The position numbers and the translations under genes are program-made. Positions 338-20,488 of a stretch of 43,659 nucleotides of DNA are shown here, piece by piece. The notes beneath the pieces were generated by a model that saw only the letters and a list, made by a program, of their open reading frames with translations, ran no database searches and was not told the DNA's origin. The stretch is from a virus: positions 1 through 43,659 of IMG/VR virus record IMGVR_UViG_3300009157_000027; one strand, given 5' to 3'. How positions within the stretch are numbered: the stretch's first letter is position 1; the number at the start of each line of letters is the position of its first letter.

Positions 338-2983
338 TCACTCTTCCATTGCTTTGTCTAGTGTACTAACAGACACGCCCAACTGCTCTGCTACTTCAGC
401 TCTAGTGAACCCAGAGTTGAACATACTCTCTGCTCTGTTCATCATAGAGGTAGACATCATAGTCTGAGTCTTAGGTGTAGCTAACTTACGCACAGTATCC
501 ATGTTGGCATGTGTAAGGATCTCGTCTAACTTTGAATCACTAATAGCGCCAGCCTGAATAGCATCCCACTCAGGCTGTGTGATCTCTATCCTATCCTTAC
601 CTGCACCAGTCCGACGGCGGGCTTCAGTAATAGCCTGCTGTTCTACCTTCTTAAGTGTAGACTTATCATCCTTCAATGTAGGATCATAGTCTTTCTTGCT
701 TCTAATTACTGCATTAGCAATGAGCTGTGCCTGCCGTTCACGGGGCTTGTTGTTAATAGCCACCGTCAACTTAGAATCAAGGGAGGCCACTTCATTGGGG
801 TATGCCTTAGTAGCAGAGGGGTTCCATTTGGCACGGGGGGTATGAACAGCAGCAAGGCGGGCCTGGTTAGCCATTGCCTTAAGGTTATTAGAATAGTTAG
901 CATAGATAGCTTCAATGGGCTGCCCTGATGATAAGGTATGGGCATTCCTTGCTTCAGCAAGCTGGGTGGTTAGTGTGGTACGGGGGTTACCTTTGTAATT
1001 GGTACGCCCAGTAAGAGTAAAGACCTTCTCTCCAGTAGTCTTATCAATAGGCCCACCTTCAGAAGCTCTTCTCTCAACCCTTTCGGGTACCCTAACTTCA
1101 GACTTAGCCCGAGAGATAAGGGTTGCTGCACCACCCTTACCATCTGGTTGACGCTGATACTTGGCCTTCAGTTCCTTTATGTTGTTGTCGTTGCGTGACA
1201 GGACATGATCAAGACCGTGCTTCTCTGCATCAATTACTACCATCGAATGCTTAATGGCTCGAGCGATCTCTTCATGAGATGCACCCTTAATAGTCATGTC
1301 TGTTACTAGATTAGAAATCTTACCCATCTCTGTCTGGGTATTCTTCATTACCTTCATACCAGGATAACCCGGGTAAGAAGCTCGAGGATCAAAGTTCTTA
1401 AGCGCAGCGAGGTGAGGGGTAGCTAAAACCGTACCTCTATTAGGAATAACTAGAACGGTATCACCATCGAAGTCGGCACCAGACAACTGATTGGCAACCT
1501 TGTGGTTGATACCAATAGCTGTCTTAGCATCACCCAAAAGCTTCTTTGCTTCTGCATTACGGTTGTTCACAATTAGTTCTGGAATTTCAAACGTTCCACC
1601 ATGAGGATGACGAATCAGTACAACTCGATCACCATTCTTGTAGCCAGGAGCATACACGTGTGTTTCTCTCAGGCTATTAACTGGCATAATAACCTTGACA
1701 CTTTGACCAGGAAGAGCAGCTGCCTTCAGGTGGACAGACGCTGCATCAGTACTATCCGCGAATTGCAGAAGCAATCGCTTACGCACAGTAGGATTAGTAA
1801 GTGCTTGAATCTCTTCTAGTTCACGCTTCCTACGCTCATAGGTCATGTCCAATTGTGACTTAGCGAGCGTCGGCTTCTGCTTCGACAAAAACTGAGATGA
1901 CAAAGTTCGAGACCACTTGGTCCAGTCTTCATCATCATTAACAATATGAACTGCTGAAACAACCTTTGCGTTGGTAGCGCCAGGCTTATCCCACAACGGT
2001 CTTACGATTGATCCGAAAGGAAGATCTGGATCTTTGGTAATATCTTTTAGAGCATCAAGCTTGTTTCCAGTATCTTTCTTGCTCGTGTTGAAAACAAGAT
2101 CCACACCCTCAGGAAGGTCATCCTTGTAAACAGCCATTCCCTTTAGATACTTGTTCTTAGCAACAAGAATTCGAACCTGCGCATAGTTTACTCCGCCAAG
2201 GCTCAGATCTTTTGCGCCAGGACGAATATAGATAACGCCATCTGCTGCTGCTCCACCTTCATCTCCATACAGAACCTTCAGCCGCTTTTGGTCGACACTT
2301 CTGGGAGGTGGGGGCTTTGGTGTGTAAGTACGCCCGCCATCTGCCGAGAACTTATCGAACGGTTGAATCTCCGCTTGATTCCGCCAAATATCATTCTGTG
2401 TGGTTCCAGGAGTAGCAAGAACCTTGAGTTGGTTGTTCTTCCCTATACCAACTAGAGGAACTGGGATGGTGTGTACTTCATAACCTTCATTTTTCAGGAT
2501 AGAAAGAGATGTGTTAAGCTTCTCACTGCTAACACCGAGCTTATTCTCCACACCTTTTCCAACATCAACCATCTTTGCTTCATCAACTCTATCACGAAGC
2601 ATATTGGTAGTTGCTGTTAGAACATCCTGCTTGTCCGCAGCGCCCGGCTTCAGCCAGTTTCGAACAGTCGGCTCGGCTTCTCCCATTCTTGTGGCTATGG
2701 CATTTGTGGACATCCCCTTGTCCTTCAGACGCTGAGCCATAGCAATATTAGCTTGTCTTTGCTGATTACGAGCAGCAGACTTCTGCGCTCTCATTTCAGT
2801 AGTGCTCATGCCCATACCTTCGGCGATTTGTTTCTCAGTTAGACCTTGCTTTGTAAGCATCTTGATATGGTCTAAGAGAAGCTTATTATGGGTGTTTTCA
2901 GGTTCGCCAGATCCCCAAGGATACCGGCCAGACCTGCGAATAACGCCGATATGCGACAGATAATCCTGTTCATCTACTTTCAC
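338..2983 (-). CDS. Single-chain YonO-like DNA-dependent RNA polymerase with helix-turn-helix segments
   Basis: 881 residues from a GTG start behind a GGGGGTG ribosome site. Near residues 281-299 lies a KG..VYKDDLPEGVDLVFN stretch, which resembles the conserved double-psi barrel of bacterial RNA polymerase beta (KG...EDMP..G..VDI..N). At 503-508 lies ADFDGD, the metal-binding signature of beta-prime (NADFDGD), preceded by an R-H-P-H-G-G segment near 458. A conserved MGKISNLVTDMT..GA block (about 553-568) and AEKHGLD follow. This beta-like then beta-prime-like order in one chain is that of the YonO (SPbeta phage) class of polymerases. Residues about 36-112 contain two helix-turn-helix-like segments, and the last 40 residues contain a third, perhaps for promoter recognition. 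The N-terminal SGRYPWGSGE motif is shared with other phage proteins. It probably transcribes phage genes; the activity is inferred from motifs. Confidence 0.85.
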   Translation of the reverse strand: MKVDEQDYLSHIGVIRRSGRYPWGSGEPENTHNKLLLDHIKMLTKQGLTEKQIAEGMGMSTTEMRAQKSAARNQQRQANIAMAQRLKDKGMSTNAIATRMGEAEPTVRNWLKPGAADKQDVLTATTNMLRDRVDEAKMVDVGKGVENKLGVSSEKLNTSLSILKNEGYEVHTIPVPLVGIGKNNQLKVLATPGTTQNDIWRNQAEIQPFDKFSADGGRTYTPKPPPPRSVDQKRLKVLYGDEGGAAADGVIYIRPGAKDLSLGGVNYAQVRILVAKNKYLKGMAVYKDDLPEGVDLVFNTSKKDTGNKLDALKDITKDPDLPFGSIVRPLWDKPGATNAKVVSAVHIVNDDEDWTKWSRTLSSQFLSKQKPTLAKSQLDMTYERRKRELEEIQALTNPTVRKRLLLQFADSTDAASVHLKAAALPGQSVKVIMPVNSLRETHVYAPGYKNGDRVVLIRHPHGGTFEIPELIVNNRNAEAKKLLGDAKTAIGINHKVANQLSGADFDGDTVLVIPNRGTVLATPHLAALKNFDPRASYPGYPGMKVMKNTQTEMGKISNLVTDMTIKGASHEEIARAIKHSMVVIDAEKHGLDHVLSRNDNNIKELKAKYQRQPDGKGGAATLISRAKSEVRVPERVERRASEGGPIDKTTGEKVFTLTGRTNYKGNPRTTLTTQLAEARNAHTLSSGQPIEAIYANYSNNLKAMANQARLAAVHTPRAKWNPSATKAYPNEVASLDSKLTVAINNKPRERQAQLIANAVIRSKKDYDPTLKDDKSTLKKVEQQAITEARRRTGAGKDRIEITQPEWDAIQAGAISDSKLDEILTHANMDTVRKLATPKTQTMMSTSMMNRAESMFNSGFTRAEVAEQLGVSVSTLDKAMEE

Positions 2984-2992
2984 AACACCCCC

Positions 2993-3553
2993 TTAGATTC
3001 TGTCCGAAGCCTTCATCATTTCTATCTGTTGGTCGAAGTACACGATTCGATCCATGATTTCCATTATCGTTTCTGCAAATGGTTGGTAAACCTTGATCTC
3101 TTCTCTTTGGTAGATACGCAGCTCAATATCAATAGCTGACGGATCTGCGCTATACTCCAAACAAAATAAAGCGGCATAGACTTCGAGTTGATGCTCCGAG
3201 GTATTAATGATGCCGGTCTTCAGGTCGTGAATTCTCAACTTGCTGTTACGGAAACATATGGTATCCGCTTTTCCGAAACAATTTTCTGAATAAAATAAGG
3301 GTTGCTCGCAGTTCATCTTGTATCCAATAGCGTCGTTAACATATGTTGCTAGCGACAGATTGGACTTAGCGAGCTTCACACCAAGACGAATTGCTTCATG
3401 AGCTAAAGCGTGAAGATCGGTACCTCGACGCGCCGCCATCGCTGAAATGAATCGCGCCTCTAACTTCTGGTCATCATAGTTGATCCAGTGATAATTGCTA
3501 GGACTAAGAAATGCGTGTCGGTTCGCTAATTCCGAATGTGAGTTGAAGATCAT
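2993..3553 (-). CDS. PD-(D/E)XK exonuclease, Cas4/RecB-like
   Basis: 186 residues from an ATG with GAGGAGG nine bases upstream; two in-frame codons further upstream lack a ribosome site. Motifs in order: G-T-D-L-H-A with His48, GKAD with Asp97, HDLKTG with Asp110 and Lys112, and HQLEVYA with Gln122. This His, Asp, (D/E)xK, QxxxY set is that of the RecB/Cas4/lambda-exonuclease-like fold, which degrades DNA from ends with two metal ions. No cysteine cluster typical of Cas4 is obvious. It overlaps the upstream VRR-NUC gene by 50 bases and precedes the RNA polymerase gene. Likely roles are host DNA breakdown, recombination or DNA end processing. Confidence 0.75.
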   Translation of the reverse strand: MIFNSHSELANRHAFLSPSNYHWINYDDQKLEARFISAMAARRGTDLHALAHEAIRLGVKLAKSNLSLATYVNDAIGYKMNCEQPLFYSENCFGKADTICFRNSKLRIHDLKTGIINTSEHQLEVYAALFCLEYSADPSAIDIELRIYQREEIKVYQPFAETIMEIMDRIVYFDQQIEMMKASDRI

Positions 3554-3815
3554 GCAACACATCCTCCTCATTTTCCGGATATATGAATGAGGCGAACGAC
3601 ATCGAATCTAGTAGTTCGACGTAGTAGTCTTGATTGGGTCGGCGGCTAGATTTGGTATGGCGCTTGAACTCCAACGCTGCCCACGTGTTCTCGTACAAAA
3701 TAATAATGTCTGGGATCCCCTGGAGATATCCAGCATCATTCTTAAGAACGATGCAACCAGGAAAAAGTTCTCGAATTATTGAGATAATCCTACGTTGATA
3801 GAGGCTCTCGATCAT
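3504..3815 (-). CDS. VRR-NUC family endonuclease
   Basis: 103 residues. The compact PD-(D/E)XK core reads GIPDIIILYENTWAALEFK (residues 33-51), giving Asp36, Glu49 and Lys51, followed by P-N-Q (Gln62). This matches stand-alone phage VRR-NUC proteins of about 100 residues, which are thought to cut branched or specific DNA structures. The start is the ATG behind GCGAGG; an upstream ATG sits directly on a GGAGG and is too close to use it. A copy of the repeated promoter lies about 40 bases upstream. The 3' end overlaps the next nuclease by 50 bases, so the two are made together. Confidence 0.75.
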   Translation of the reverse strand: MIESLYQRRIISIIRELFPGCIVLKNDAGYLQGIPDIIILYENTWAALEFKRHTKSSRRPNQDYYVELLDSMSFASFIYPENEEDVLHDLQLTFGISEPTRIS

Positions 3816-4597: not shown

Positions 4598-5773
4598 TCA
4601 AAAATAAGTGCCGGATTTTATCAGTTCACGCTCGTTAAAAGACCTTTTCTCGGCCAAAGCACCCGTCACTGCTCTATCAATTGCCGACGAACTGACGAGG
4701 ATATAGTAGTACAAATTCTTGAAGCTAGTGTTGATGCGGTCAATCCTCCCTTGGCTTTGAATGAAATTCTTATAAGAGTAAGTCAAGGAATATAGAATCA
4801 TCGTGTCAGTTTCTATACAGTTCCATCCTTCTGCACCCGCGTTGTATTGCACAAGGTATACCCATTTGTCAGAATCTGGGATCGGATCCTTCCTATGGCC
4901 GTTCCATTCCGCTACGTCCGCATCCACGCATAAGGTCTGCAATATGGCCAACTCGTAGTTGAAATTGTAGAAGATAATCAATTTGGCGTGCGTCCGCATA
5001 AGCTCCAGAACAGTGGCCAGACGACTAGGATCCGTATTGCAAATCCTCCTCATGACGCGGAACAGCTCCCCAGCATCATGTATCGGACGGTTCTCAAACG
5101 GGTGCCAACGCTTCTTTACAGCCAACTCCCATTTCTCGATATCGTATGCTACAGGTATGTAATTGAGGTTGCGTGTGGTGTTTTTTGGGTATGGCATTTC
5201 CACAAGGATCTCATTACGCAAAGCTTCAAGTTTCCGCACTCCGACATACCGCAGAACCTTTGGAAATTTCACGTACGGAGCATAGATGACGTGCTCGCGC
5301 TTGAAATCGGTTATCGATTTGTACCACCCGTTCGCGACGAAGACGGGGGCGTAATCGAGCCAGGTGTCCCCAGGTGTAGCAGATAGCATGATCCAGCGGT
5401 TACGTCTCGATATCTTGAGAAAGTGTTTAACCCATGCACCGGTACCGACAAGACGTTGCTCATCAAAGATAAAGAATGCTCCTTGCACCTCGAGGTACTT
5501 GCCGATATTGTTCCAAGAGTCGACAGTGATAGTACCAAAAGGAGGCACACTGACACCGTCACCAATACCAAACTTAGCTGCTTCACCCAACCAGTCAAGG
5601 GAGTCTCTCTTCTTCGCCGTAGTGATCACATATATATCCCTAGGCGTTTCTTCATTAACGTAATAAGCCAAAGCCGTAGCTGATTTACCAACACCTACTT
5701 CTCCGTACAGGATCTTCCCGCTACCCAAGAACTCGATAGCATCGATCTGATGTCGCATCAATTCGAAATCCAT
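4598..5773 (-). CDS. SF2 (SNF2-like) DNA helicase
   Basis: 391 residues. Walker A is GEVGVGKS (24-31), the Walker B box is FIFDEQR (102-107), motif III is LSATP (130-134), and the second RecA-like domain has a VQYNAGAEGWNC motif V and a QSQGRIDRINT motif VI with its arginine finger. The first 20 residues (RHQIDAIEF) are a Q-motif-like start typical of SNF2/DEAH-type phage helicases. It probably remodels or unwinds DNA during replication or recombination. The ATG has AAGGAGGTGAC upstream. It lies just after the terminator of the 57-residue gene and has no obvious promoter of its own, so it probably depends on read-through. Confidence 0.9.
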   Translation of the reverse strand: MDFELMRHQIDAIEFLGSGKILYGEVGVGKSATALAYYVNEETPRDIYVITTAKKRDSLDWLGEAAKFGIGDGVSVPPFGTITVDSWNNIGKYLEVQGAFFIFDEQRLVGTGAWVKHFLKISRRNRWIMLSATPGDTWLDYAPVFVANGWYKSITDFKREHVIYAPYVKFPKVLRYVGVRKLEALRNEILVEMPYPKNTTRNLNYIPVAYDIEKWELAVKKRWHPFENRPIHDAGELFRVMRRICNTDPSRLATVLELMRTHAKLIIFYNFNYELAILQTLCVDADVAEWNGHRKDPIPDSDKWVYLVQYNAGAEGWNCIETDTMILYSLTYSYKNFIQSQGRIDRINTSFKNLYYYILVSSSAIDRAVTGALAEKRSFNERELIKSGTYF

Positions 5774-11516: not shown

Positions 11517-11987
11517 TTAGTCTTCCGAAGATGTCTCATAACTTGCGTACTTTCTCTCTAACGCGTCTTCCTCGATAGTAACGAAGAGCGATTGCAAATA
11601 TGCTTTCGTTCCGGACTTACCATTTACTTCCCAGTCATACCCCCTTGCGATGAGATCGGCCGTTCGGATATCTGACCAATCTAAGACCTCGACCGACTTC
11701 TCATCCAGCTGCGTACGAGTCGTTGCAGTAAGTAGCACAACGCGAGGAGGACGGTTACTAAAATTAACCGCAACAGAAATGTAAGGAGTCGGCGCATCGC
11801 CCTCTTCTCTCGCTTCTAGATATCGAACATTCCATCCGTCGAGCAGCATCTGCTCAGCAACATCTTCTGGTAGAACTACTGCGAAGTTGCGATCACCCTC
11901 CCGATTATACTGACCCTCCTTACCTGAGAAGTTACGGAAGATGAGACGAGCATCTTCAATCATGAAGGTCTTCGCCAACTCGGGCAT
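11517..11987 (-). CDS. Probable single-stranded DNA-binding protein
   Basis: 156 residues. The order IEDARLIFRNFSGKEGQYN, NFAVVLPEDVAEQMLLDGWNVRYL, then YISVAVNF and a closing GTKAYLQSLFVTIEEDALERKY is that of a conserved phage family usually described as ssDNA-binding (OB-fold) proteins. The acidic C-terminus (ETSSED) fits the tail of SSB-type proteins. It would protect single strands made by the adjacent helicase/primase/polymerase. It lies two genes downstream of that gene on the same transcript. Confidence 0.7.
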   Translation of the reverse strand: MPELAKTFMIEDARLIFRNFSGKEGQYNREGDRNFAVVLPEDVAEQMLLDGWNVRYLEAREEGDAPTPYISVAVNFSNRPPRVVLLTATTRTQLDEKSVEVLDWSDIRTADLIARGYDWEVNGKSGTKAYLQSLFVTIEEDALERKYASYETSSED

Positions 11988-11994
11988 ATTACTC

Positions 11995-12300
11995 CTAGTG
12001 GTCTATGGTTCGGTATGCTTTCGTCTCTGTGTTCATCCCATACAGGATGTTCCACAGCGTCTGGGCCCTCAGGTAATTCACTGACTCGTCGAAATCATCT
12101 CTGACTTCTCCAGCTGCGCTCACCTCAAATCGAGTGATTAGCTCTCGCATCATCTCTTCGGTCGTGGCACACCCAAGTTGAGGTTCCTTGAGTTCGATAA
12201 GATGACAAGGACCGTCTGTTCGATGCAGAAGCAAGCCAACGATCTTGCATCCTCCTGGGTCTATGTCGATATCTCCACAAACACACGTTCCATCACTCAT
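11995..12300 (-). CDS. Small phage protein with CxCGDI module
   Basis: 101 residues. The N-terminal third holds CVCGDIDIDPGG, a histidine and a further cysteine (GPCHLIEL), the same layout as the protein at 11066-11512. The remainder is helical with no known domain. The start overlaps the stop of the polymerase gene (ATGA) and AGGAG lies eight bases before it, so it is coupled to polymerase synthesis. A replication accessory role is possible but unproven. Confidence 0.65.
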   Translation of the reverse strand: MSDGTCVCGDIDIDPGGCKIVGLLLHRTDGPCHLIELKEPQLGCATTEEMMRELITRFEVSAAGEVRDDFDESVNYLRAQTLWNILYGMNTETKAYRTIDH

Positions 12301-15300
12301 GCCACCAACTCCTCATATGGGACAAACTTCTCGATTGCCTTGAGCGCGTCGCTCTTCAACTTCTCGAAGTAGTCCATGTCTGCGAAGAGTTCCCCGATAG
12401 AATCACGATGTTTGGCAATTTCTCGCTCGACCCAGATGTATCCTTTGGTCCCGGCAACGTGGTATCTCTTACCATCCTTAACTCGCCAAAGTGACGCTCC
12501 CTCATGTCTAACAGGCATGAAACTTCCCGTTCTTCCCACGTGCCGCAGGTCGGACAGGTCCATAGCATCGTCAAGTCCACCCAGGTACATTGCCCCCTGA
12601 GTAACATTCTTAACTTCGCATAGGTCATCAAAGACGAGATCCGCATGGGAGAAGAGCTCTTTGTAGACATACGGGTGCTGGAATTGCGCGCCGACCGCCG
12701 TCCACGCCCCAGAAGGGGACCGAGCAATATATACCGCATCATTGATGAGGAGGAACTTTTCGTACGTCGTCTCATGTTCGAAGTCATAGCCATACCTCTT
12801 TCCGAAGTCTATTACGAAGTCGATTATTTCGGGAGTTGCCCCGGGGATTTTTATGGAGTCGGTTTTGATATGGGCTACCACAAAGCCCTTTGCCTGCACT
12901 GCCCGCTTAAGATCGATCATGAACAACGCGCCACGCTTCGCTACGATGTTGTCGCGATTTCGCACATCTCTGAACGAATTCTCAAAACGAGCACTTGTAA
13001 GTCCATATACGATATTGATGACGATCTTGAGAGCGTACGACAATGCTTCAGCGCCAGCTTCGTCGTCTTCAGCATCTCCAAGAAACTGAGTGAGCTTACC
13101 ACCAAGTAGGCCCCTGGCGCGTTCATAATTCTTATGTTTGATCGCCATCCGTGCTTCTTTGAGAGCGCTGAAGTTGACGGTGTATGGGCCGAATAGATTA
13201 AGCAACTCGATACTCGTCGGATGCATACTCGCCACGTCCAATAACGCGACGTTCGTGTAGTAACCCGGCTCGGAATATACGTAACCACCCTCACCTGTGA
13301 CTTCACCACAGTAACGACTCTCCTTACCATCAAACTCATAACCAGGAAACTGCTCGCTCAGGTCGGTGTACACGAATTTACTCTGGGGCTTCTTGTCATC
13401 CCCAAAGAGAATCTTCGCAGTATGGTTCTGCGTCGTGTGATTCACCGATAGCCCGGACAGCTCCGCTAATATCTGCCTAGCTACGAAATCTTGCTTCCTT
13501 GACTCAAAGACAGCCTCCGTTGCGATTACGTCGTTCACGCAGTAATCCTCGACCTTACCCCATTGACCCTCTGGAACTGGCTGATCCCAAGGAAGATCCA
13601 GCTCGAGATGGTGAATGCCGAGTTCGATCTGAAACTTCTTCAGCCCCTGCTTCTTTGAGCTGAAGTCGAAGATGTCTGCGTATGAGATGTGAAAAGCTTC
13701 TCCAAAAAGGCCCCAGGAGTTGTTGTATCCAGCATTAATAATTCGTTGACTAAGGTCGTGCAGTTCTTCGATCGAGTATCCCATATACCTGGCGTATAGA
13801 ATATGGTTGTCATATCGTCTGTTATTGAATCCGACCAGCTTCTTCTTGAACAGGGGAGCTATTTCGTCAGCTGTTGGGTTGACCATCCGTACGACAGTAT
13901 CCGATTCTGCGTACTTCCAACACACGATGAAGAGATTAGGATATACCTCAACGTCGAAGAACGTCAGAGGTTCTTCCCCATCTTCTCTTGCCTCGGGCAT
14001 GTTGCTCTTGCCTATGAACTTCATCGTTTGGACTACGCGAATACACTCAGTCGAATGATGCGTGCTTCGTGCAGCGAACGTCAAGACGACGGGCTTCATA
14101 TCCTGGAGATCGTAAGCCAGACCATTGTCGAACGCCGTTTCAAGAATATGGGCGATGAAATCGATGGAAGGCTTTGTGCCGGGATGGATCTCCTTTCGGA
14201 GGTTCCTGTCAATGAGATCTCGAAGACCCTTTTCGCTTTGAATACTTTTCGTCTCGAGCATCCGCTTCTCCTTGGTGGGAAGACCGCCATTGAGAGTAGC
14301 AATATCAAGATTGTTGCACTTAGTAAGCATACGCCGAAGCGAACTATCACCCAAGAGAGTCTTTATTTCAATACCCACATCAAACACAGAATCAAGATCA
14401 TGCACATCTCCAGTATACACATAATGAAGATGAAGCCCTTTCCCGCTACGGCTGAGTTCCGTGTAGGTTGGGGGCAATCTTGAGGCTCGTTCAATATTCA
14501 GCTCCAGGTCTTTCTCTCCATCCTCATCTACTAAATCGAAATCGATAACAATGTGTTGCTCAGGAACCTTTACGAAGTGTAATCTGGTGGTGTCGACGTC
14601 TGCCAAGGTGGTAGCGTTGTTTCCCCACTTAAGAGGCGGGACGCCATTTGACGTTGCTTCCTGCGCCGGCTGATCCGGATAAGCAGTGTTAAAAGCAGAT
14701 GGATGGAGATCCTCATCAAAATCGGATAGTTCAATAACGTACGAAGTATCCGGTACGAACGGCGTTGGTCCTTGCTCTGGGAGTCCTCTGAATCCGACAT
14801 ACACACTCCTATACTCCTTGTCTCCGATGAAATGACGCTCGTGGAATTCGTCGAAGTAATTGCTAAGTTCATTCCGAACCTCATGGTGCTGAAGGCGTTT
14901 CATGATGTTCGACTCTTCGCAATGTAGCTTGTACAAATCCCAGGCGTACTTTAACTGTATAGCGTCTTGAGACTTGAATATATCAAAGTGGGCCTCTACG
15001 AAGTTGTAGAAGGTGTCGGTCAGCATCATCATCTTTGTGGGAATATAGTTCTCGTAATAGAACTTCCCCATCTCTCGATACCGACGAAGGCACTTATGCG
15101 CTATCGCGCCAAGCTCATAATTGACGTTTTCGACCAAAATATGGTACCGATTTGGTTCGATTTTCACACCAGTTGGGTGTACGTCAATCAATCTCCGTGT
15201 ATTCCCAGCCTTGGCATCAGCAATCTTCACGGGCTTGTTCGTGCCAATTATCAGAAACGCGTTGGGACGGATGCTGTACGCGGACCTGTACTTGACATTC

Positions 15301-16067
15301 ATATTCATCAAGTCATGCCCGACAATGGAGTTCAGACGCGTGTTGTCTTCGATTCTTGAGAGATCCCCGTCGTGCTGAAGAGCCACGAGAGGGTTCTTCT
15401 CGAACGTCTCCATCGCAAACGTACCCGAGTGGCTCGTCAGGGCGCGGGCCTCGAACGTCGTTACGTACCCCTCAAATAACTTCTCAAATATATCGATGAC
15501 AGTGGACTTGCCCGTACCCGGTGCTCCATAAAATACCAGGAACTTCTGTAGCCACTTAGAGTCTCCGGAGACAATCGCCCCGATAGACCACTCGATTTTA
15601 TCTCGTTCATCAGGAGCGTATAGCACACTAAGCAGTTCATCCCATGCGTCGGTTCTTCCTGGTTCGAGTGCATATGGGAGCCTTTTGCTGGCGTAGTCCT
15701 TCTTACCAACCTTCGAGTTAGCGAACGTCAGACATTCATCCAACTGATGGAAGTTTCCATTATGTGGTAGGTTTCGGATATACTTGTTAAACTTCTCCCA
15801 CGTACCTGAGTTGAAGTCCCTGCTATAAAGCGGGTCAAAGACGTCGCCATTTTTCTTAGCGTCCTCGACGAACTCACGTAGACCTTGATCTACAAGTCGC
15901 CGAACATCAAATTCGTTCTGAGACCACATGCCTTGCTCTTGGTCCCAAACAGCATAAAATGCACCACCTCTAACCATTAAGTCATCAAAGGTATCAACAA
16001 TCCAGTCGGGATATACTTGTGGGGTGCCTTTGCTGGCATCCTTAATTCTGATTTTACAGAAATCCAC
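12297..16067 (-). CDS. Fused SF3-type helicase, AEP primase-polymerase and family B DNA polymerase
   Basis: 1256 residues in one open frame from a GTG behind GGGAGGGGG (a frame extension upstream overlaps the previous gene). Part 1, about 1-420: helicase of the D5/SF3 type, Walker A GAPGTGKS (181-188), acidic box near 232-235 (HDGD), GTNKP (275-279). Part 2, about 490-620: archaeo-eukaryotic primase-like, I-D-F-D (508-511) and SGKGLHLHY (541-549). Part 3, about 700-1256: family B polymerase with 3'-5' exonuclease, DVEV (705-708), FNNRRYD (747-753), YCVND (842-846), motif A DVASMHPTSI (944-953), motif B K...N..YG (1014-1022), motif C KTDS (1068-1071). The first Asp of the usual DTDS is Lys here, as I remember in some phage polymerases. 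One protein could unwind, prime and copy phage DNA. Confidence 0.85.
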   Translation of the reverse strand: MDFCKIRIKDASKGTPQVYPDWIVDTFDDLMVRGGAFYAVWDQEQGMWSQNEFDVRRLVDQGLREFVEDAKKNGDVFDPLYSRDFNSGTWEKFNKYIRNLPHNGNFHQLDECLTFANSKVGKKDYASKRLPYALEPGRTDAWDELLSVLYAPDERDKIEWSIGAIVSGDSKWLQKFLVFYGAPGTGKSTVIDIFEKLFEGYVTTFEARALTSHSGTFAMETFEKNPLVALQHDGDLSRIEDNTRLNSIVGHDLMNMNVKYRSAYSIRPNAFLIIGTNKPVKIADAKAGNTRRLIDVHPTGVKIEPNRYHILVENVNYELGAIAHKCLRRYREMGKFYYENYIPTKMMMLTDTFYNFVEAHFDIFKSQDAIQLKYAWDLYKLHCEESNIMKRLQHHEVRNELSNYFDEFHERHFIGDKEYRSVYVGFRGLPEQGPTPFVPDTSYVIELSDFDEDLHPSAFNTAYPDQPAQEATSNGVPPLKWGNNATTLADVDTTRLHFVKVPEQHIVIDFDLVDEDGEKDLELNIERASRLPPTYTELSRSGKGLHLHYVYTGDVHDLDSVFDVGIEIKTLLGDSSLRRMLTKCNNLDIATLNGGLPTKEKRMLETKSIQSEKGLRDLIDRNLRKEIHPGTKPSIDFIAHILETAFDNGLAYDLQDMKPVVLTFAARSTHHSTECIRVVQTMKFIGKSNMPEAREDGEEPLTFFDVEVYPNLFIVCWKYAESDTVVRMVNPTADEIAPLFKKKLVGFNNRRYDNHILYARYMGYSIEELHDLSQRIINAGYNNSWGLFGEAFHISYADIFDFSSKKQGLKKFQIELGIHHLELDLPWDQPVPEGQWGKVEDYCVNDVIATEAVFESRKQDFVARQILAELSGLSVNHTTQNHTAKILFGDDKKPQSKFVYTDLSEQFPGYEFDGKESRYCGEVTGEGGYVYSEPGYYTNVALLDVASMHPTSIELLNLFGPYTVNFSALKEARMAIKHKNYERARGLLGGKLTQFLGDAEDDEAGAEALSYALKIVINIVYGLTSARFENSFRDVRNRDNIVAKRGALFMIDLKRAVQAKGFVVAHIKTDSIKIPGATPEIIDFVIDFGKRYGYDFEHETTYEKFLLINDAVYIARSPSGAWTAVGAQFQHPYVYKELFSHADLVFDDLCEVKNVTQGAMYLGGLDDAMDLSDLRHVGRTGSFMPVRHEGASLWRVKDGKRYHVAGTKGYIWVEREIAKHRDSIGELFADMDYFEKLKSDALKAIEKFVPYEELVA

Positions 16068-16080
16068 AAAACCCCCTCCC

Positions 16081-16611
16081 TTATTGCCCTCTAAGATACT
16101 CCGCAAACTGATACCAGACTTCGACGTCTCTTTGATCAGTATGGGGTCTAGTTAACGGAAATAACCCTCCCTTCCCGTTATGCTCGTAAGTCCGCCAAAT
16201 AAATCGGTCTAGAATTTCCTCGACGTCCGCGGGATCTATATCTGCAGCATCGTTCAGTTCACAAAGCCCAAGGTTCTCTAGGAATCTCCAGAACCAAGTC
16301 CTGAACCCTATGTCTGTCATGAACTCGGTCCGATACGAAAAGGCGATCAACATTTCGAGAACCGAACACCCAGCTATCGATTTTACACTATGCCTTGGGT
16401 ACATCGTTCTGGACTCGAATATGAAGTCGTCTCTAAGCTCCAAACCATCCGCCACTCTGTTATCGTCACCAGATATAAGCCACACAAACTCGATCCGGTG
16501 AAGAATCTGCAGCAGCTTCCAATGCGTCAAAGATGGTGTCGGGTTTGGAACCGGATGCATCACCTTAGCGCAGAGCCATCGAAAATACTCCTCCTCGAGA
16601 GCCCATAACAC
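16081..16611 (-). CDS. Conserved phage protein of unknown function
   Basis: 176 residues, GTG start with GGAGTAACC upstream. Recognisable segments are LHRIEFVWLISGDDNRVADGL, CSVLEMLIAFSYR, RTWFWRFLENLGL and a closing HNGKGGLFPL ... EVWYQFAEYL. I remember this pattern (E-F-x-W......D-x-N-R-x-x-D-G-x-x-L-R, CSVLEM.IA) from a family widespread in phages of Gram-positive bacteria; its function is not known to me. Helical, soluble. It lies 13 bases before the polymerase gene, so a replication or late role is possible. Confidence 0.75.
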   Translation of the reverse strand: MLWALEEEYFRWLCAKVMHPVPNPTPSLTHWKLLQILHRIEFVWLISGDDNRVADGLELRDDFIFESRTMYPRHSVKSIAGCSVLEMLIAFSYRTEFMTDIGFRTWFWRFLENLGLCELNDAADIDPADVEEILDRFIWRTYEHNGKGGLFPLTRPHTDQRDVEVWYQFAEYLRGQ

Positions 16612-16613
16612 GG

Positions 16614-17375
16614 TTACTCCAATCTGAACTTCGGATGTTGCTTACCCTTCTTGGGCTTCCTACTGTGCTGGATCTCTTCGTCTAGCCCTAAGACTTCCAT
16701 ACCGAAGTGTCCTGGATCACGAAGGATCTCGTACTCGCACTCAATCTTCTCATTACGGACATATACGATGTTCTCATCCTCTGATCCATGCCCAAAGAGC
16801 AAGATCCCGAATATGTCTCGGTTGTAAACAGGAGCGCCCTTCGAATCACAAAGAACGTCGTCACCCACATAATATGTGAGAGTTTCGTGCGGATAATCCA
16901 TCTCGTCGCTGTTAAATTCGTCGACGTGGATCACATAAGGACGGTTAGGCCCTCTGTTCTGGGCTTCTTCCTTGTAGTCCCAGTAATCGTCTCGATAGTT
17001 GTCTCCCTTCTCCGGTGATGTGCGCATGAGCGTTTGAATCTCTGTTTCCTCTTCTACGACGATGATGGTCTCTCGTACCGTAACTGCGTCGGTAAACGGG
17101 AGTTCTGGTTGAGCTTCTTCAATCTCAATGCTCGAATCTCCAAGATCTCCCTTTCTAGAATGTTCACCTCCAGCATCAACTCGATTATCTCCAGCTCGAT
17201 CTGACGGCCCCTCAAAGTAAGGGCGTTTATTTCTGATCTTTCCAAGGACATACCCGACACCTACTCCTACGCCTAACGCGATAACGCCGATAACTACAGG
17301 AACGGCTATGTTTCTAGGAACCTTCACCTCTGGGATCGTTACTTCAGGAATCGTTACTTCATCAGGAAGCTCCAC
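16614..17375 (-). CDS. Membrane-anchored phage protein with conserved soluble domain
   Basis: 253 residues, GTG start with AGGAGTAGAC upstream. Residues 1-20 carry a repeated V-T-I-P-E-V pattern, one membrane helix spans about 23-46 (IAVPVVIGVIALGVGVGVGYVL), a charged, disordered linker follows, and about 140-240 is a conserved domain (RPYVIHVDEF, ETLTYYVGDDVL, NIVYVRNEKIECEYEI). As I remember, this domain occurs in many Gram-positive phages next to the families found here. It faces the cytoplasm or outside; orientation is not clear. Function unknown. Confidence 0.75.
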   Translation of the reverse strand: MELPDEVTIPEVTIPEVKVPRNIAVPVVIGVIALGVGVGVGYVLGKIRNKRPYFEGPSDRAGDNRVDAGGEHSRKGDLGDSSIEIEEAQPELPFTDAVTVRETIIVVEEETEIQTLMRTSPEKGDNYRDDYWDYKEEAQNRGPNRPYVIHVDEFNSDEMDYPHETLTYYVGDDVLCDSKGAPVYNRDIFGILLFGHGSEDENIVYVRNEKIECEYEILRDPGHFGMEVLGLDEEIQHSRKPKKGKQHPKFRLE

Positions 17376-17383
17376 GTCTACTC

Positions 17384-18292
17384 CTAGATCTTGTCGTAGA
17401 TAACGCCGTCAACATTGAAATCGAGCAAAATGCTTGGCTCAGACCCGTTGACAAACCGGGAGTTCCATGCATCAAACATGCCAAAGCTTATGTAATCGTC
17501 TCCGTCGCCACCCTTGAGCCACCCGACAACAGCTCCTGCCTTCGATCTCGGAACGCCGATCATATCGTACACCTCATTGAGGAATACATGACCCATTGAG
17601 ACGAGACGGTGATTCGCATATGCCTGCTGAACCTCTAGGAATACGCGATTGTATTCTGCATTCCGAACCCAGTTCGAAGAGTACTCGTCAAAGAACCGTG
17701 CATACGGAGAAACATGAAGCGGGTTGACAACCCTCGCCTCTATGATCTCTCCATCACGCGTTTGGACCAATTCCTTGGAGGAGCCATGATACAGCTCAAG
17801 CTCCTTCTCTTCACCAACCTCTTCCCGCACTCTATTCCGGTACTTCTCCAGGAACTCTTGGACCCCGGCGTACGCGGCCATGAGGGCAGACTGACGACGC
17901 GCCATCTGGATGTGAGAGCTGGTTAGCATCGCGATCGAAGCCGTACCGAGAATTGCTGCCGGTGCGTACAAGAGCACGATCTTAACAGCCGATCGTCCGT
18001 AGACGTGCAACGTGTCGATGTGGTGGTGCAGCTCCTCAAGATGAGCCTCCGGGCTTTCACGATCTGCCGGAAGTTCACGAAGGAGCTTGTTCTCCTCAAT
18101 TTCCTTGTTGATCTCCTCGAGCTTCTGCGGGAGCTTCATCGTTGCGCGGCAAGCCAGGACCGTGCTCGCAAGCGTCCCAACCACGCCGAGCCCAAAGAAG
18201 ATATGAGGAGAGTTTTTCTTAGCTACAAGAGCCTGTCTGGCAACAGTACCGAGGATGGCTTTCGGAACTGCCTTCATGAGAAGATTGTTCAT
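17384..18292 (-). CDS. DUF6353-like phage membrane protein
   Basis: 302 residues. Three hydrophobic segments: about 30-50 (HIFFGLGVVGTLASTVLA), 100-120 (VKIVLLYAPAAILGTASIAML) and the start of a third region, with a coiled, charged stretch between (PQKLEEINKEIEENK). The C-terminal 90 residues form a soluble domain (VFLNEVYDMIGVPRS ... LLDFNVDGVIYD). Layout and motifs match the family I know as DUF6353, and a shorter relative is encoded at 19742-20488. Function unknown; the two may form a membrane complex next to the replication genes. Confidence 0.75.
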   Translation of the reverse strand: MNNLLMKAVPKAILGTVARQALVAKKNSPHIFFGLGVVGTLASTVLACRATMKLPQKLEEINKEIEENKLLRELPADRESPEAHLEELHHHIDTLHVYGRSAVKIVLLYAPAAILGTASIAMLTSSHIQMARRQSALMAAYAGVQEFLEKYRNRVREEVGEEKELELYHGSSKELVQTRDGEIIEARVVNPLHVSPYARFFDEYSSNWVRNAEYNRVFLEVQQAYANHRLVSMGHVFLNEVYDMIGVPRSKAGAVVGWLKGGDGDDYISFGMFDAWNSRFVNGSEPSILLDFNVDGVIYDKI

Positions 18293-18304
18293 CTATCGGC
18301 CCTT

Positions 18305-18949
18305 TCAGATAGGTTCTACTGGTGGAAGATCGATAAAGTACCCGTCTCGGATTTGACGGATCTCTACATTGTTCAACGATGTCCAGCCCCACTTATTATC
18401 TACTGCAGTAGATCTAAGGCCAACCAGATCATAAAGATCTGCCAACGAAGCAACTTCAAATTTGTCGATGATGTCGATCAGGCGTTCGACAACGACTTCG
18501 GCGTCCTGTCTTCTCGACAAGATAAGATCCTGATGCTCGGACCTTTCTCTCTGCCGAAACGCGGGCTGATCCGGCAATAACCCACGACGAGTGTTGGTTA
18601 GTCCGCTAACTATCGTCTCACGGGGCTCTCTGAACGCCCTTCTATCCGGATTATCGTATCGAATGATCGAACGATTCTCTGCTGTGCGCCTACGAAACGT
18701 CGAGTCACCATATATAACGCCCTTCGCACCATTGACGATTGCGTCCACAAGCAAGTCTCGTACGGCTGGTAAAATAACATCAGCTGCGACAAACCGACCG
18801 GCAGTCTTAACGTCACCGCCGAAGAATACGTTCCTGAACTTCCGCCCAAAGGATTCAGGCTTTCGAATTACTTCTCCAGTTACTACCTTGGAGATCTGCT
18901 TGTCGCCCTTCTCTTCCTTGCTCTTGTCCGAATTACTCTGATAATCCAT
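18305..18949 (-). CDS. Conserved phage protein of the membrane block
   Basis: 214 residues, ATG behind GGGAAGGGT. Recognisable: GEVIRKPESFGRKFRNVFFGG, then VILPAVRDLLVDAIVNGAKGVIYG (amphipathic helix that may touch the membrane), a basic disordered middle, and a C-terminal WGWTSLNNVEIRQIRDGYFIDLPP. I recall the same two end motifs in a family common to phages of Gram-positive bacteria; no function is known to me. It is packed with the DUF6353-like genes and probably acts with them. Confidence 0.75.
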   Translation of the reverse strand: MDYQSNSDKSKEEKGDKQISKVVTGEVIRKPESFGRKFRNVFFGGDVKTAGRFVAADVILPAVRDLLVDAIVNGAKGVIYGDSTFRRRTAENRSIIRYDNPDRRAFREPRETIVSGLTNTRRGLLPDQPAFRQRERSEHQDLILSRRQDAEVVVERLIDIIDKFEVASLADLYDLVGLRSTAVDNKWGWTSLNNVEIRQIRDGYFIDLPPVEPI

Positions 18950-18958
18950 ACCCTTCCC

Positions 18959-19372
18959 TTACAGTTGTGGGGTAGTTAGGACGGCAACCTCTTGCTTCTC
19001 TACTTCCTTTGCAAAGTCCTTCGGGATTATCCCCTTGATGAATTCCGCAGCAGCCGTATCATCTGTAGCAAGCTCAATGAACAGAGAATCGTATGCAGCC
19101 GTCTGTGAAAACGCCTCTCTGAGTTCGTCATTCTTGATGAACCTCTTCCCGTCCTCAGATCTCTCACCATAAGACAAAAGAATAATGCGCTTGAACTCTT
19201 CAACAAGCTGCTTCTTATCTTCTGTCCGCACAATTCGAGCAAGAGCAGCTTCCAAGCCTTCCTTGTAGGAAACCTGAAGCTCTATAATCTCGCTCTTGCT
19301 AAGATTGAAGTGGAAATTTTCTGTTACGGTCTCACCATCGAAGTTCTCGTAGGTGATGGGTCGAATAAGCAT
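18959..19372 (-). CDS. Conserved phage protein, tail-chaperone-like family
   Basis: 137 residues, ATG behind GAGGATAG. Motifs FHFNLSKSEIIELQ, IILLSYGERSEDGKRFIKNDELR and FSQTAAYDSLFIELATDD are familiar from a family found beside membrane proteins in many phages; I have seen resemblance to tail-assembly chaperones but cannot confirm it. The position, far from the tail genes and inside the membrane/replication block, argues for another role. Soluble, helical. Confidence 0.65.
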   Translation of the reverse strand: MLIRPITYENFDGETVTENFHFNLSKSEIIELQVSYKEGLEAALARIVRTEDKKQLVEEFKRIILLSYGERSEDGKRFIKNDELREAFSQTAAYDSLFIELATDDTAAAEFIKGIIPKDFAKEVEKQEVAVLTTPQL

Positions 19373-19741: not shown

Positions 19742-20488
19742 CTATATCGGCTGAATGTAGTTGTAATCGAACGCCATACACGGACGGCCATCTTCAGTCA
19801 AAGCCGCTGAGAATATCAACTCCATCAACTTGTCTGAGGTCCACCCAATGTGCGGTGCTTGTGTCGTGTTCTGAAGACCAATACGCCAATACCACTCATC
19901 CAACGTTGCATAGTCTTGCCTGAGCAATAGCGCGTTCAAATCATTCATCGCCTTGCGCAATGTCTCCACATCACTCACAAAATATCGCATTGTGAGCAAT
20001 TCACAGCACAAGACCGCGCCCGGACCAGATATCAGTGTCGCAGGAGGTGGATCTTTCGCTATCTTGTCAGCGACCACCTTATCGACAATGGACTGATCCT
20101 TACGTGAACTGAACTCTTGAACAATCTTGTCTCGATACTCAGCGAGTGATCGTTGAGAGACCGCGACGAGAGATTGAGCAGCGAGAATCTTCCTAGCTGC
20201 GAGCCGGTTTGCTCCAGCGATGGCGAAGATCGTTGAAGTTCCGAGGAGTACGGGGGGAATGTAAAACGTCCAGACGAGCTTGAATCGTCCCCAGAGTTGG
20301 GCTCTTGGGGAGTCGTAGGTAGTTCCATTATACTGTTCATCCCTCTTGATTACGTGAGCGGCTCTGTAGGAAGCTCGACCTGTCATAAATGCCGTAGCTA
20401 CAACTCCAACACCAGCAGCAACGGAAGAAATAAGCGAAGAATTATGCTTCGTAAAATTAGTGATCGTCCCTAGCAGTTCGCTCAGCAT
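19742..20488 (-). CDS. DUF6353-like phage membrane protein, second copy
   Basis: 248 residues. Hydrophobic segments at about 19-40 (ISSVAAGVGVVATAFMTG) and 72-95 (VWTFYIPPVLLGTSTIFAIAG), then a long helix and a C-terminal soluble domain with DEWYWRIGLQ, IGWTSDKLMEL and ending CMAFDYNYIQPI. Domain order is the same as in the 302-residue protein at 17384-18292, so the two are probably paralogues. Its start overlaps the 61-residue membrane gene upstream. Function unknown. Confidence 0.75.
   Translation of the reverse strand: MLSELLGTITNFTKHNSSLISSVAAGVGVVATAFMTGRASYRAAHVIKRDEQYNGTTYDSPRAQLWGRFKLVWTFYIPPVLLGTSTIFAIAGANRLAARKILAAQSLVAVSQRSLAEYRDKIVQEFSSRKDQSIVDKVVADKIAKDPPPATLISGPGAVLCCELLTMRYFVSDVETLRKAMNDLNALLLRQDYATLDEWYWRIGLQNTTQAPHIGWTSDKLMELIFSAALTEDGRPCMAFDYNYIQPI

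Follow-up and report, generated by a model that had tools for sequence, protein, structure and literature searches.

The window analysed here, a 43,659-base virus record, encodes on its minus strand a 1256-residue protein that is almost certainly a HelPrimPolB replicase, the enzyme on which a tailed phage mainly relies for replication; it is homologous to GP55 of lactococcal phage 1706. Judging from the closest named relatives, the host is probably an actinobacterium. Structural genes of tailed phages (terminase, portal, protease/major head, major tail and tape measure) are found in the same window. The HelPrimPolB group of family B DNA polymerases (PolB), a group of the EpsilonN-like clade in which an SF3 helicase and a PrimPol are fused N-terminal to PolB, was named by Kazlauskas et al. 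(2020; PMC7544198), who noted its divergent motif C and credited the fusion to earlier work of Kazlauskas and Venclovas (2016). The window protein displays the fusion, homology to GP55 over its whole length, a divergent motif C and the priming residues of the region termed aHD, and no difference from the group was found. It is therefore a further member of a known enzyme family, for which both the fusion and the one-protein replisome have been described. The replicase, its parts and two of its neighbours are as follows.

12300..16067, minus strand (stop codon 12297-12299): HelPrimPolB replicase, 1256 aa (PHROG 4210, GP55 alignment, conserved start)
14778..15710, minus strand: SF3 helicase region, residues ~120-430 (Pfam DUF5906; phrog_1829/1156/864; invariant residues)
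14268..14690, minus strand: AEP (PriS/Prim-Pol-like) primase region, residues ~460-600 (profiles in 28 members, invariant residues)
13998..14240, minus strand: aHD-like helical region, residues ~610-690 (GP55 alignment, 40.7% identity)
13488..13970, minus strand: 3'-5' exonuclease region, residues ~700-860 (invariant motifs; phrog_1252)
12300..13295, minus strand: PolB polymerase region, palm, residues ~925-1256 (Pol II match, motif counts)
16081..16611, minus strand: conserved 176-aa gene (phrog_4678), the replicase's immediate upstream neighbour
11517..11987, minus strand: phage ssDNA-binding protein (SSB), 156 aa, two genes downstream of the replicase (PF24083 Phage_ssDNA_bind, E=2.3e-61; phrog_4787)

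Reading frame and domain order

The earlier note had assigned helicase, primase and polymerase to one uninterrupted frame at 12297-16067. The gene and its extent stand, as do the domains, their order and their fusion, but the strand, which that note left out, is the minus strand; the plus strand is rich in stop codons there. At its longest the frame can be read as an ORF of 1269 aa (12297-16106, minus strand) from the first TTG at 16106. The start is most likely the GTG at 16067, which lies a few bases past the end (16081) of the upstream 176-aa gene and has GGAGGGGG immediately upstream of it; the codon aligned with it in homologous viral contigs is GTG in 18 of 23 and ATG in the other five. 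PHROG 4210 ('DNA polymerase', 1304 positions) is matched over the entire length of the protein (E=0, 1794 bits). Relatives were recovered from 27 IMG/VR loci, of which 19 carry the entire protein in a single open frame, seven are partial because the contig ends and one is identical across the 209 residues that it covers. Because the frame is open in all 19 full-length environmental contigs, the hidden stop codon against which the earlier note had cautioned is excluded, as is a frameshift. No repeats were found around the ends of the gene.

Profile searches gave family matches for each of the SF3, AEP and PolB parts, those of the AEP segment alone being weak. In the helicase part, a match to Pfam DUF5906 spans residues 179-292 (E=1.6e-12), and a longer stretch (residues 140-432) matches the SF3 portion found at the C-terminus of phage DNA primases (phrog_1829/1156/864). 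Its motifs comprise a Walker A sequence GAPGTGKS at 181-188 (K187), D233/D235, the sensor-1 N277 and the arginines R291/R292; in the 28-member family alignment the Walker lysine is kept in 27/27 members where the position is present and the sensor-1 asparagine is invariant. In Streptomyces phage Thiqqums, gene 55 (L032 5971-6468) encodes a 165-aa protein resembling a partial, diverged copy of the replicase SF3 part; the intact replicase of that phage lies a few genes downstream.

Assignment of residues ~460-600 to the AEP superfamily is suggested by motifs, profile matches and homology to GP55. Both catalytic motifs, hhhDhD and SxGxHxH, are present as IDFD 508-511 (D509/D511) and SGKGLHLH 541-548 (H546/H548), and E567 would be the third acidic motif, given its position and invariance. 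The full-length protein matches Pfam Prim-Pol weakly (E=0.15); when a 271-aa AEP segment was scanned in the 28 members, Prim-Pol was matched in 22 (best E 0.005; for the window protein under the curated cut-off), and the DNA-primase families phrog_3022 and phrog_1829 in 28 and 26, respectively. A family profile of the AEP and aHD parts gave no significant match to solved structures. Two separate stretches of the window protein match phrog_1829: residues 463-547 correspond to positions 33-123 of the family and residues 140-432 to positions 469-759; thus the AEP-SF3 order of that primase is swapped here to SF3-AEP, which bears out the unusual sequence of helicase, primase and polymerase that had been remarked upon.

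The three parts proposed at the outset hold, with the correction that the segment between the AEP and exonuclease regions corresponds to another functional part, the aHD, in which Y652 and F664 align with Y655 and F667 of GP55. The exonuclease region follows, its best stretch against phrog_1252 (phage DNA polymerase) being residues 690-898 (E=4.9e-41). It carries ExoI (D705/E707), ExoII (N748/Y752/D753) and ExoIII (Y842/D846), residues that are invariant in the 28 members save that Y752 is once replaced by Phe. In the polymerase region residues 925-1072 match Escherichia coli DNA polymerase II (3k57, E=8.5e-5), and motifs A (D944), B (K1014-N1018-Y1021-G1022) and C (KTDS 1068-1071) can be placed; D944, K1014, N1018, Y1021 and D1070 are invariant in the alignment.

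Comparison with GP55 and the polymerase active site

GP55 has been purified and shown to possess helicase, primase, polymerase and exonuclease activity, namely UTP/dTTP-dependent unwinding, RNA primer synthesis, strand-displacing DNA synthesis and 3'-5' exonuclease (Zhang et al., 2025; PMC12205980). It forms a dimer, its primase and polymerase work in trans, and its priming requires the aHD, including Y655 and F667 (PMC12205980). The window protein is 39.9% identical to GP55 across 1220 aligned residues (helicase 29.5%, AEP 44.0%, aHD 40.7%, exonuclease 48.5%, polymerase 46.4%) and shares its order SF3-AEP-aHD-exo-PolB. All seven functional residues that were mapped are kept (GP55 to window: K189 to K187, D509 to D511, Y655 to Y652, F667 to F664, D712/E714 to D705/E707 and D949 to D944). 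The two differ at the end of Walker A, which is GKS in the window protein and GKG in GP55, and in the host groups of their phages. With identity as low as 29.5% in the helicase part, dependence on UTP or dTTP of the GP55 type may not carry over. The activities of GP55 were demonstrated with purified protein; those of the window protein are inferred, and so are the nucleotide its helicase would use, its oligomeric state and what the SSB does.

The one-protein replisome that the earlier note had envisaged is supported by this comparison, as it matches the biochemistry of a homologue 40% identical (PMC12205980). Most probably, the SF3 part would unwind the fork; short RNA primers would be made on the single-stranded template by the AEP part together with the aHD; the PolB part would elongate these into DNA with proofreading, and the downstream SSB would cover exposed ssDNA. 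Unwinding, priming, synthesis and proofreading in one protein amount to a compact replication machine that could interest those working on isothermal DNA amplification, as was already pointed out for GP55. What the window protein contributes is an actinophage-side relative whose SSB neighbour is conserved.

Two positions of the polymerase active site are altered. Motif A reads D944-x-x-S-M-H949-P (13218-13238, minus strand), placing His949 at the position of the tyrosine that in family B polymerases acts as a steric gate and screens out ribonucleotides (PMC10639073); motif C reads H-I-K1068-T-D1070-S (12855-12872, minus strand), with Lys replacing the first Asp. Each substitution is present in 28/28 members, GP55 included, so that GP55 and the window protein have in common both the motif A His and KTDS at motif C. 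GP55 synthesizes DNA although it has both substitutions (PMC12205980). In two relatives encoded by separate genes, motif A keeps Tyr and motif C has Asn in place of Asp, so the absence of that Asp extends beyond the HelPrimPolB group, while the motif A His appears, as far as seen here, to be particular to it. An altered sugar check of the PolB part, brought about by His949 and Lys1068, is a speculative and rather unlikely reading; if true, it would perhaps be an adaptation that lets the enzyme extend the RNA primers it makes or tolerate ribonucleotides. Neither 'steric' nor 'ribonucleotide' occurs in the main text of the GP55 paper (PMC12205980), and no discussion of the motif A His together with the motif C Lys was found. 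Both odd substitutions hold family-wide and could be tested.

Distribution of the family and alternative readings

The suggestion that such a fusion is rare proved overstated, given that tblastn recovered 252 phage records in which 80% or more of the replicase is covered, mostly from phages of Gordonia, Arthrobacter and Streptomyces, and that the PolB group has been named since 2020. Proteins annotated as 'DNA primase/polymerase', a label that names just two of the activities, in Gordonia, Arthrobacter, Curtobacterium, Microbacterium and Streptomyces phages are ~47-56% identical to the window replicase over the whole length, and these actinophages, where checked, have the same upstream gene and a downstream SSB. 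The corresponding protein of Lactococcus phage P162 is 35% identical. No close nucleotide-level relative of the window was found in the phage collection, and the plasmid collection yielded a single distant polymerase match. Listeria phage LM 4-14-1 encodes an AEP-SF3 primase-helicase beside a PolB, related to the AEP/SF3 and PolB parts of the window protein, but differs in using two genes, in placing AEP before SF3, and in its motifs A (DVASMYP) and C (NTDG). Bifidobacterium phage BitterVaud1 (L029 4001-8631) encodes its replicase in two ORFs, with the break between the exonuclease and motif A and a 213-aa ORF without a Pfam family between the two pieces; Rfam detected no intron in the split gene.

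Two other readings of the window protein were weighed. Considered alone, the AEP segment has weak profile matches, as might be expected of a degenerate, non-catalytic remnant, with primers supplied instead by the host's DnaG primase or by some separate enzyme. This is very improbable and was rejected: across 28 members at 35-77% identity to the window protein there is no variation at D509/D511, H546/H548, E567 or R578/R579, and a dead domain would not keep them; moreover, the D509A mutant demonstrated that the PriS-like domain of GP55 is needed for priming (PMC12205980). Nor was a second primase matched among the window proteins scanned. That separate genes were artificially joined by a sequencing or assembly error has a negligible chance of being correct. 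The two pieces in BitterVaud1 indicate that splits exist, yet nothing in the window itself points to an artificial junction, and the BitterVaud1 break falls between the exonuclease and polymerase motif A rather than between helicase, primase and polymerase. The homologues, both the full-length environmental contigs and the phage records, refute such an artefact.

Genes surrounding the replicase

The ssDNA-binding protein that had been noticed downstream of the replicase is real, as its PF24083 match attests, and it follows the replicase in nearly every locus of sufficient length; in phage 1706 it is orf66. It is probably a partner of the replicase, and cooperation between the two is plausible. 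No SSB is mentioned in the main text of the GP55 paper (PMC12205980). The 176-aa gene occupies the same place in actinophage and environmental loci but was not detected beside GP55 in phage 1706 or in the P162 locus. It is the last of a block of five upstream genes (137, 214, 302, 253 and 176 aa; 16081-19372, minus strand) whose order is kept in most environmental relatives and among which one match to DUF6353 and one to Phage_TAC_17 were obtained. Two DUF6353 proteins are encoded near the replicase (17384-18292 and 19742-20488, both minus strand) and are probably paralogues.

Further genes near the start of the window account for the remaining nucleic-acid enzymes seen.

338-2983, minus strand: RNA polymerase-like protein, 881 aa (PHROG 4291, 'RNA-dependent RNA polymerase')
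2993-3571: exonuclease (phrog_3953)
4598-5773: helicase (Helicase_C, phrog_62)

The 881-aa PHROG 4291 protein contains DFDGD at residue 504, an HTH at 80-112 and a sigma-70 region-4-like HTH at 858-878, and could possibly be a single-chain RNA polymerase of the phage that carries its own DNA-binding parts.
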